Program-made: the position numbers and the translations under genes
Part shown: positions 9,779-13,804 of the stretch, one piece after another
Layout of the letters: each line of letters begins with the position of its first letter
Numbering within the stretch: the first letter of the stretch is position 1
The notes under the pieces: generated by a model
Told to the model about the DNA's origin: nothing
The model's database searches: none
What the model saw: the letters and a program-made list of their open reading frames with translations, nothing else
Virus record (IMG/VR): IMGVR_UViG_3300024308_000053
Location: 1 to 29,694 of that record
Length of the DNA: 29,694 bases
Source: a virus
Direction: 5' to 3' (one strand)

Positions 9779-9794
9779 AGGGGCCGAAGCCCCT
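9779..9794 (-). terminator. Hairpin after the major capsid gene (leaky terminator)
   Basis: On the minus strand, AGGGGC TTCG GCCCCT is followed by TCTT. It is a stable stem with a UUCG loop but a poor T-run. This may give partial termination, making the capsid gene message more abundant than the genes after it. Confidence 0.6.
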
Positions 9795-11627: not shown

Positions 11628-11656
11628 AGAATAAATTATTCCGCAGGAGAAGGCAA
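11628..11656 (-). promoter_or_regulatory. Candidate promoter for scaffold-capsid genes
   Basis: On the minus strand, a TTGCCT -35 (11651-11656), a 17-base spacer and a TATTCT -10 (11628-11633) are seen. The -35 is the same as in the terminase promoter. It lies back to back with the plus-strand promoter at 11666-11694. Confidence 0.5.
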
Positions 11657-11722: not shown

Positions 11723-11872
11723 ATGACGACTTTAATTGTAATGGAATTTGAAACCAGCAAACCTGAATACCGCCAAATGACAATGGAACAGGCATATAAG
11801 CTTGCGTCACGCGGGTCTTTCTACAAAGCACAAATTATCAGCGAAGATGGGGTTGTTGAATATGAGTTTTAG
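11723..11872 (+). CDS. Small protein of unknown function (49 residues)
   Basis: It begins after a very strong AGGAGGTG ribosome site, just after a near-consensus promoter. The product (MTTLIVMEFETSKPEYRQMT ... ISEDGVVEYEF) looks like a small alpha/beta fold: strand, helix, strands. The strong expression signals argue that it is a real early gene, perhaps acting on the host. It overlaps the next gene by 11 bases. I recognise no family. Confidence 0.65.
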   Translation: MTTLIVMEFETSKPEYRQMTMEQAYKLASRGSFYKAQIISEDGVVEYEF

Positions 11873-12206
11873 AAATAACCTAAAAAATCACATTAAAATT
11901 TTCGGCGAAGATGGCCTGCACTCATGGAATGCCGGATATGATGTCAACGATGATATTTTCATACACAAAATAGTAAGAGCAACTCGCCGTGAAGTTAAAT
12001 CCGGAGATATATTAAAGATAAGAGATAACGGCGTTATCGTTGCAGTAGAGAAAGTATTAGGGGTATTTCTTATAGTTGTGGCCGTAGACCCGGCGCTAAG
12101 AGACGCGGCACCATACAGGGCGGCCGGAGAAGGTAAGACGGGAAAGTATGTGTACGGTAGAGTAAAAATCAATAAAGCCCATGTCGATACCATAAAAGCC
12201 CCGTAA
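11862..12206 (+). CDS. Small basic protein of unknown function (114 residues)
   Basis: I chose the ATG at 11862, which overlaps the gene before it; a longer frame back to 11802 lies inside that gene. The sequence starts MSFRNNLKNHIKIFGEDGLH and continues with mostly beta segments, such as SGDILKIRDNGVIVAVEKV and GKYVYGRVKINKAHV. Net charge is positive. It ends close to a two-way terminator. No family is recognised. It forms a two-gene plus-strand cassette between the capsid and spanin genes. Confidence 0.6.
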   Translation: MSFRNNLKNHIKIFGEDGLHSWNAGYDVNDDIFIHKIVRATRREVKSGDILKIRDNGVIVAVEKVLGVFLIVVAVDPALRDAAPYRAAGEGKTGKYVYGRVKINKAHVDTIKAP

Positions 12207-12215
12207 GGGGCTTTT
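12194..12215 (+). terminator. Two-way Rho-independent terminator
   Basis: AAAAGCCCC GTAA GGGGCTTTT is fully symmetric, so it can stop both the plus cassette (ending at 12206) and the minus spanin transcript (ending at 12217). Confidence 0.9.
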
Positions 12216-12216
12216 C

Positions 12217-12456
12217 TCATTGTGTAACGTTCTTAATCCAGTCCTGCAACCTGTACACCTTTAGCCTGAGCTGGCGCACGCATTCCGCGTTCTGCACATC
12301 CGCAGACAAATCCTCATCGGCATCTGCTTTCGCATCACCTAACTTACACGGCGCGGTCATAAGCTGCGGGTCAACCGGCGGCAACGTGTTAGGCGTATAT
12401 TCTGGCGCACAACCAGTTATTCCAATTATTACAGCCAACAGGAATAATTTATTCAT
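12217..12456 (-). CDS. Rz1: Outer-membrane spanin (Rz1-like lipoprotein)
   Basis: This 79-residue protein has a lipoprotein signal (MNKLFLLAVIIGITGC), so the mature protein would start at Cys16 and be fixed to the outer membrane. Pro-rich segments follow (PNTLPPVDPQ), then a C-terminal helix. The gene starts inside the end of the Rz-like gene (8-base overlap, different frame), the classic Rz/Rz1 arrangement. Together they fuse inner and outer membranes in the last step of lysis. It is longer than lambda Rz1 but fits the overlapping class. Confidence 0.88.
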   Translation of the reverse strand: MNKLFLLAVIIGITGCAPEYTPNTLPPVDPQLMTAPCKLGDAKADADEDLSADVQNAECVRQLRLKVYRLQDWIKNVTQ

Positions 12457-12811
12457 TGTCGTAGCCTTTGATGTGATTGGCGTTATCGACGGCGGCCTGT
12501 TTCAGCTTAACGCGCGCTTCATCGAACGTGCAGACATTCCGGCCCGGCGTCTTGATGTACTTAACGACTTCCTGAGTGATGGTTACGGTGCGTGCGGCAC
12601 CCTGCTGTTCGGCGGCGGCGGCGCGGGTGTCGTTCTGGTGCTGCCGTGTGACTTGCTTCTCCAGCTTAGCCTGTGCCTGCTGTTGCTGTTGCGTTACCAG
12701 TGTGGCGCGGCCTTCTTTCCAGCCCTGACTGTGCTGATAAACTCCGTAGGCCCAAAAGGAGGATATGAGAAGTCCGGGGATAACGATAATTAATATGCTT
12801 CGTAGATTCAT
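12449..12811 (-). CDS. Rz: Inner-membrane spanin (Rz-like)
   Basis: I place the start at the ATG at 12811, which has GGGAG in front; an in-frame TTG at 12823 is less likely. The product has 120 residues: one membrane helix near the N-terminus (RSILIIVIPGLLISSFWAYG), then a periplasmic coiled coil rich in Q and A (GRATLVTQQQQQAQAKLEKQ), and a final domain with a Cys that may form a disulfide. It pairs with the lipoprotein encoded at 12217-12456. The spanins lie about 9 kb away from the endolysin and holin candidates. Confidence 0.88.
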   Translation of the reverse strand: MNLRSILIIVIPGLLISSFWAYGVYQHSQGWKEGRATLVTQQQQQAQAKLEKQVTRQHQNDTRAAAAEQQGAARTVTITQEVVKYIKTPGRNVCTFDEARVKLKQAAVDNANHIKGYDNE

Positions 12812-12835
12812 GTTGTCTCCCAACCCCTCGTAACA

Positions 12836-13107
12836 GTGGGGGTAGCCTTAGCGAACCCCACACCATTACTGTACGGCAACACACTAAGAATCATTGTTGC
12901 CGTAAGTCATTGAAAGGATAGAGTCCGACAGATTGTCCGTCTCAGTATAACTGATTCAGAGAAATCTGAATAGACTATCCCCGATGTCTGTTTGACCGGT
13001 GCTGAGCCATACGCGCATCGCTTCAGGGACTCCAGGCCTTACGGCCCGTCCCTGGCGACTTGCTAAGATGCTTTCGCATCTTGGCATGTCTGTTCCGTGG
13101 TGAGGTC
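12836..13107 (-). ncRNA. Large structured RNA or leader before the spanins
   Basis: This gene-free stretch is full of exact hairpins. Stems: GTGGGG/CCCCAC (12836-12861); a 10-base stem at 12872-12881/12895-12904; a cloverleaf closed by GGATAG/CTATCC (12916-12980) with ATTCAGA GAAA TCTGAAT inside; CAGGGAC/GTCCCTG enclosing GGCC/GGCC (13024-13054); AAGATGC/GCATCTT (13065-13082). Read on the minus strand two loops are GNRA (GTAA, GAAA), and a TATAAT box lies upstream on that strand, so minus is the likely sense. No open frame of note covers it. It may be a separate RNA or the spanin leader. I match it to no known family. Confidence 0.65.
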
Positions 13108-13113
13108 AACGGC

Positions 13114-13119
13114 ATTATA
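13114..13119 (-). promoter_or_regulatory. -10 box upstream of the structured RNA and spanins
   Basis: A perfect TATAAT is present on the minus strand. The nearest -35 (TTGGCA at 13139-13144) is 19 bases away, so the promoter may need an activator. The predicted start is near 13107. Confidence 0.45.
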
Positions 13120-13158
13120 CAAAAACGTGTCAATAGCATGCCAATTAAAGATACTTAT

Positions 13159-13291: not shown

Positions 13292-13804
13292 ATGTTCAAA
13301 GTAAGCTACGCCGCGTTTCAATCCGCCACACTTTGTCGCGGTAAGAACGACACAAGGCATTACGTTAACGGTTTTCATCTTGACGCAGAAGGTTTTATAG
13401 TGGCGACAGACGGCGCAATACTTTTCACCGGAAAAGTTGAAACAGAAGCCGGCGAAAGTATTACCGTTGACGTGCTAGGTAAGGCCCCGTCTAAGTTCGA
13501 CTATGCAGAAATTGATTCTACTTCGGCTAAGTTCTACTCAGATAAAGCGGGATTTTTAAGTGCTCTAGCGGTCCGCTTTGTAGATTGTCGTTACCCTGAT
13601 TGGCGGCGCGTCACTAAATTCACAGAGGGTCAAGTATCCTCTATAGGATTCGCAGGTTCGTATCTTCATGCACTGGAAAAGGCGGGAAAGTTCTACGGTA
13701 AAAAAAAATCGGTAAAATTAGAATTTCAGAGCGCTACAGACGCTTGCCGCGTTGCGTTATCCGATACAGATTTCATTGTCCTTATGCCTGCTAGAATTAA
13801 ATAA
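13292..13804 (+). CDS. Sliding-clamp-like protein (short DNA polymerase III beta homologue)
   Basis: This 170-residue protein begins after a GAGG site. Residues 24-48 (VNGFHLDAEGFIVATDGAIL) match the beta-clamp pattern leading to VATDG (37-41). Residues 97-108 (VDCRYPDWRRVT) match the conserved DG.(F/Y)PD(Y/F)RRV motif of bacterial clamps. The following helix SYLHALEKAGKFYG fits the next clamp subdomain. Bacterial clamps have three such domains in about 366 residues; here there is room for little more than one and a half, so it could build a ring from more subunits or act on the host clamp. It forms a one-gene plus cassette inside the late block. Confidence 0.72.
   Translation: MFKVSYAAFQSATLCRGKNDTRHYVNGFHLDAEGFIVATDGAILFTGKVETEAGESITVDVLGKAPSKFDYAEIDSTSAKFYSDKAGFLSALAVRFVDCRYPDWRRVTKFTEGQVSSIGFAGSYLHALEKAGKFYGKKKSVKLEFQSATDACRVALSDTDFIVLMPARIK

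Follow-up and report, generated by a model that had tools for sequence, protein, structure and literature searches.

Why should a gene-free stretch in front of the spanin genes of a phage be so densely folded, and on what would an RNA made from it act? We addressed this in IMG/VR record IMGVR_UViG_3300024308_000053, whose positions 1 to 29,694 form the window analysed here. Judged by its sequence, the source virus is a Guernseyvirinae siphophage close to Cornellvirus; the best matches of the window are the Salmonella phages SaI_NFG_5577 and vB_CECAV_044 (96%). Guernseyvirinae are commonly isolated phages of Salmonella and Escherichia coli, some of which have been studied for biocontrol or therapy.

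A densely folded leader before the spanin genes

The minus strand of the window carries late genes, namely those for head morphogenesis, a Hoc-like decoration protein, the spanins, the scaffold and the major capsid protein. Read along this strand, the head morphogenesis and Hoc-like genes are followed by a terminator (13824–13809), a moron on the plus strand (13292–13804), the leader, Rz and Rz1, the two spanin genes serving to breach the outer membrane of the host. Past Rz1 come a bidirectional terminator, a second plus-strand ORF (11802–12206) and then the scaffold and major capsid genes (Table 1). The moron matches a PHROG named RusA-like resolvase, a name that is doubtful as annotated; a second PHROG match is to a DNA polymerase processivity factor (E 2e-5), and there is no Pfam match.

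Table 1. Features of the leader and its surroundings, in window coordinates
Feature	Position	Strand	Basis or conservation
Promoter-like TTGACAC-N7-TATAAT (−10 at 13119–13114)	13114..13133	-	kept in all 17 type A leaders, including Pantoea AH01
Predicted RNA 5′ end, TTGACCT (+1 at ∼13107)	13103..13109	-	invariant in all type A
Hairpin P1, GAC/UGC/AAGAUGC stem, GAAA loop	13057..13090	-	6/13 pairs with both-side changes; 96.9% of cells paired
Hairpin P2, CAGGGAC..GUCCCUG outer stem, GGCC-GUAA-GGCC inner stem	13024..13054	-	2 outer pairs with both-side changes
Candidate hairpin P3, CCGGU-CAAACAGAC-AUCGG	12981..12999	-	invariant stem
Variable linker (earlier 'cloverleaf')	12908..12980	-	length and predicted fold vary among relatives
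Hairpin P5, 10 bp	12872..12904	-	90.9% of cells paired; one pair with both-side change
Hairpin P6, directly before the ribosome-binding site	12830..12869	-	4/13 pairs with both-side changes; 95.2% of cells paired
GGGAG ribosome-binding site and ATG of the i-spanin gene	12809..12821	-	sequence
i-Spanin gene (Rz), first gene past the leader	12449..12811	-	PHROG 2536, E 1e-45
o-Spanin gene (Rz1)	12217..12456	-	PHROGs 5672 and 1267
Bidirectional intrinsic terminator past Rz1	12198..12211	both	terminator scan
Separate promoter-like TTGCCT-17-TATTCT before scaffold/major capsid	11628..11656	-	kept in most type A and type B phages compared

Between the TATAAT box and the Rz start codon at 12811 lies an untranslated leader of ∼296 nt (13107–12812, minus strand). 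A preliminary description of this DNA had proposed a gene-free, unusually densely folded stretch here, with a TATAAT just upstream on the minus strand, and these points were borne out. No coding was found in an ORF check; the longest conserved ORF (43 aa, 12956–13087) is stopped in most relatives and loses its frame in divergent ones, and a leader peptide was rejected because of these interruptions. On the minus strand, 12824–13108 folds at −118.6 kcal/mol, whereas shuffled sequences average −85.3 (z −6.6) and none of 200 folds as well, and the leader ranks first among the 147 minus-strand windows of 280 nt in a fold scan. The 10-base stem at 12872–12904 and the nested stems at 13024–13054 were found as described, as were the two GNRA loops on the minus strand, GAAA in the hairpin at 13090–13057 and GUAA in that at 13054–13024. 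A four-way cloverleaf claimed for 12916–12980 did not survive analysis: the minimum-energy fold of this segment in the window is a rod, and neither fold nor length is kept among relatives, so that a conserved cloverleaf was rejected. In PhiSTP1 (L041 848–1291) and St161 (L033 848–1291), the annotated i-spanin starts reach upstream into the leader hairpins; these extended start codons are probably wrong.

Hairpins could arise as a side effect of a feature of the DNA itself, such as an origin, a packaging site or a recombination hot spot. The plus strand of the region also folds well (z −5.8), and a border of cassette exchange, described below, lies inside it. Nevertheless, the promoter and the ribosome-binding site next to the leader, together with its GNRA loops, all fit the minus strand. 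G·U cells also exceed A·C cells on that strand (58 versus 10), which is weak support, since choosing the pairs on the same strand biases the count. We consider an explanation at the DNA level improbable.

Covariation in type A leaders and exchange of the 5′ domain

Relatives were gathered by distant BLAST and IMG/VR pattern scans. The resulting 'type A' set comprises 17 aligned leaders, counting that of the window; they come from Salmonella phages, Pantoea phage AH01 and two IMG/VR contigs. Its members have the promoter motif, covariation in P1 and P2, P6 and a place before Rz, of which they lie directly upstream in the phage records examined. Covariation in the 5′ domain (window 13109–12977) was assessed on a sequence-only alignment with 10 distinct rows. 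A standard pair is kept in 97.9% of cells, and 8 of the 29 pairs show changes on both sides; none of 500 shuffles reached the observed covariation, and slid partners were paired in 30–41% of cases. Most of this signal comes from P1; in P2, an A-U pair is replaced by G-C in two lineages. The inner stem of P2, with its GNRA loop, and the stem of P3 never vary and are uninformative on pairing either way. As the P3 loop differs in IMG09944 while its stem stays invariant, with no covariation, we treat P3 as a suggestive candidate. RNAalifold predicts, moreover, that the TTGACCT at the predicted 5′ end could pair with GGTCAA at 12998–12993 in competition with P3, and this TTGACC/GGTCAA pairing likewise hardly varies among type A leaders.

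The 3′ hairpins were aligned together with those of SP31-like phages, whose 5′ domain differs. Here 92.4% of cells are paired and five pairs show changes on both sides, mostly in P6. Independent compensating events are few because most of the sequences are close; they come mainly from the AH01/IMG31112, VSiP/PhiSTP1 and IMG09944 lineages. The alignment of relatives that had been suggested as a check on the structure thus reveals compensating changes in P1, P2 and P6. Each type A genome searched with a type A model yields a single copy, and type B genomes yield no significant match (see below). No copy was found in plasmids; 11 P2-like sequences in bacterial genomes correspond to the P2 hairpin only and score weakly. 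We conclude that type A is a real, new family of phage leader RNAs, supported by covariation, and by kind a phage structured leader.

In type A genomes, the TTGACA of the promoter-like motif stands just 8 bp upstream of the −10 box, a spacing that does not make a standard σ70 pair and leaves the motif with no standard −35. Every type A genome examined has a single copy, and seven type B genomes have none at ≤3 mismatches. From these letters we infer a promoter.

The same place before Rz is occupied in Jerseyvirus (Ent1, PVP-SE2 and SETP3-like phages), Kagunavirus (K1ind3) and SP31-like phages by an unrelated structured leader, which we term type B (L037, L036, L004 and relatives). Both types are long structured leaders with a promoter region of their own and a hairpin before the Rz ribosome-binding site, but the 5′ domain and promoter sequence of type B are unrelated to those of type A, and the type A model finds no significant match in them. 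In most type B leaders the 5′ domain ends in a hairpin that contains CGGAAGG, and type B leaders fold moderately well (z about −1.4 to −2.5). Near-identical 3′ hairpins are nevertheless common to SP31-like and type A phages; they are fully identical between PSDA-2/SE1 (type A) and pink (type B). Since identical 3′ hairpins follow unrelated 5′ cassettes, the border of the exchanged cassette lies inside the leader. A comparison of the ORFs of seven genomes of each type, at chosen cut-offs, gave no clear regulator ORF that tracks type A or type B; the few near-matches either turn up in a type B genome as well or correspond to the RNA. The comparison thus points to no dedicated partner protein.

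Some Jerseyvirus records (e.g. NC_073198) carry an annotated tRNA-Ser that overlaps the terminator before the leader, and the tRNA-Ser called by ARAGORN in the Ent1 locus (L037 2663–2741, minus strand) lies over that terminator. These are probably false calls.

Known RNA families and the promoter core in other phages

The preliminary description had proposed a new phage noncoding RNA matching no known family, and the covariance search that it advised agrees with this: with Rfam 15, neither the window nor 12 related loci gave a match at the gathering threshold. A weak likeness to naRNA4 in the P1–P2 region falls on the opposite, plus strand (22.5 bits against a gathering threshold of 59.5, E 0.08) and was rejected. 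ARAGORN found no tRNA or tmRNA in the window. Among the searchable papers, we found none describing the leader, and a structured RNA in the late region of Guernseyvirinae is described in none of the papers found; a Guernseyvirinae RNA-seq paper (PMC12645636) presents gene-level profiles, and no mention of intergenic or noncoding RNA was found in it.

It had also been suggested that the leader is an RNA antiterminator like put of phage HK022. The put sites (putL and putR) are ∼70 nt long, with two stem-loops and the conserved core GGCGGGTTCAGGATGA..GGCAATG; they lie in early lambdoid transcripts and work without a phage protein (PMC9378689). The type A leader resembles put in its structure, in its position at or close to the 5′ end of a phage transcript, in the terminators that follow and in the lack of an indicated phage protein partner, and GC-rich paired hairpins likewise come right after its promoter. 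It differs in its length of ∼296 nt, in its at least four hairpins and in its place before late genes of lytic-type phages. A covariance model built from five put sites scores the HK022 sites at 88.2 and 51.3 bits but the leader of the window at −0.2 bits or less and type B leaders at 6.0 or less. Membership of the put family was rejected on this basis, and a divergent true put RNA is scarcely credible. Support for the put-like reading is partial; terminators do follow the leader. In phage lambda, the boxB elements of the nut sites are small hairpins with GNRA-like loops within a leader, a likeness to the present RNA, but our comparison of gene content found no N-like partner.

Nearly the same 32 bases as at the type A promoter occur in Erwinia phages of the Chaseviridae (93.8%, E 2e-5) and in an IMG/VR phage of 53 kb. 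The copies, in Erwinia phage Aioli (L027, 3511–3531, minus strand) and L011 (9808–9828, plus strand), consist of the core plus TTGACCTA. In these Chaseviridae or Chaseviridae-like genomes the core faces against the surrounding genes and is followed by a noncoding stretch, an arrangement that a free RNA would explain more readily than a leader. This bears on the alternative that the 5′ domain is released by processing or termination and acts in trans on a host or phage target, the spanins merely happening to lie downstream. In L011 the RNA behind the core folds well (z −3.5) and has a closing helix, TTTGACC/GGTCAAA, that is likewise possible in type A, and the invariant loops of type A would suit a trans-acting RNA. 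Against this, the terminator scan of the window left the interval from the RNA to Rz without a terminator or an evident 3′ end, and synteny with Rz is strict. The Aioli copy, moreover, is weakly folded (z −2.0), and the type A model finds nothing in the Chaseviridae, so that conservation of the type A RNA itself there was rejected and only the core and TTGACCTA are common. On balance, we regard a trans-acting RNA as unlikely.

Kagunavirus fBC-Eco01 (L051 2501–2867) has a promoter with a related core, TTGACACATNTTTGTATAATG. It precedes an untranslated, hairpin-rich leader of ∼350 nt, which includes a terminator-like hairpin and heads an operon adjoining replication genes.

Possible modes of action

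Place, fold, covariation of P1, P2 and P6 and exchange of the 5′ cassette are direct observations of this analysis. The reading that we prefer is that the RNA is a cis-acting structured leader of the spanin unit, to which we assign a probability of about 0.6. In its favour are the fold, the covariation, the place directly before Rz and the sister phages, which retain this place but replace promoter and 5′ domain by an unrelated structured version. RNA polymerase would start at ∼13107 on the minus strand, make the leader of ∼296 nt and continue through Rz and Rz1; transcription from the TTGACAC-N7-TATAAT motif and action in cis are both presumed here. The leader has two parts. Its 5′ domain (P1, P2 and probably P3), with invariant loops and linkers, is swapped as one cassette together with the promoter and may bind the very polymerase from which it has just emerged, or else a host elongation factor. 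The polymerase so bound would then pass terminators at about +0.6 and +7 kb, as with put but through a different RNA. The 3′ part (P5 and P6), which abuts the Rz ribosome-binding site, would most likely insulate or stabilize the Rz start region.

Antitermination directed at the polymerase by the 5′ domain is our leading specific prediction, a tentative one. It is favoured by the place of the leader at the start of a unit, by the invariant loops, the cassette exchange and the lack of an indicated protein partner, and by the terminators in its path: in most genomes, intrinsic terminators in the same strand follow the leader at +0.5–0.6, +2.2–2.5 or +6–7.6 kb. In the window, two of the three two-way terminators that had been listed, near 12194 and 5970, correspond to those at 12211–12198 and 5989–5972 (both strands), but the hairpin at 9779 lies outside the calls of the scan. 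The role in late transcription at large that had been envisaged fares less well. Scaffold and major capsid have a conserved promoter-like sequence of their own, TTGCCT-17-TATTCT, in which hexamers and spacing are kept and spacer letters vary, and read-through from the leader is therefore unnecessary for the main late genes. A broader and doubtful proposal is that the leader represents a second, unrelated class of processive antiterminator made of RNA only, a late-unit leader modifying host RNA polymerase in cis. The type A and type B 5′ domains would then be interchangeable and would be swapped between phage genera like the specificity cassettes of nut and put.

The leader may instead serve the mRNA and leave RNA polymerase unaffected, its hairpins shielding the 5′ end of the late message from RNase E or providing a processing site and keeping the Rz ribosome-binding site open. 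A long hairpin does precede that site in type A, SP31-like, Jersey and Kaguna phages despite their differing sequences, as would be expected for such a role; against it, the loops and linkers that stay invariant in the 5′ domain (the GUAA loop and CCGGU..CAUCGG) go beyond what a generic protective stem requires. We give this explanation a less than even chance. If RNA polymerase is its target, the leader would join put as another kind of antiterminator made of RNA only, and the existence of two interchangeable versions would make structure–function swaps straightforward in laboratory E. coli; should its action be on the mRNA or in trans, the phage RNA family is new and widely kept all the same.

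The scaffold/capsid unit has a conserved hairpin of its own. In most of the Guernseyvirinae compared, the region corresponding to 11656–11600 (minus strand) holds TTGCCT-17-TATTCT and then, ahead of the scaffold gene, the hairpin AGCCGGGTGGCCCGGCT and CCAGGGGACATACTGACTATG. This conserved hairpin precedes the scaffold/capsid ribosome-binding site in most of the phages compared and is possibly a translational operator of capsid assembly.
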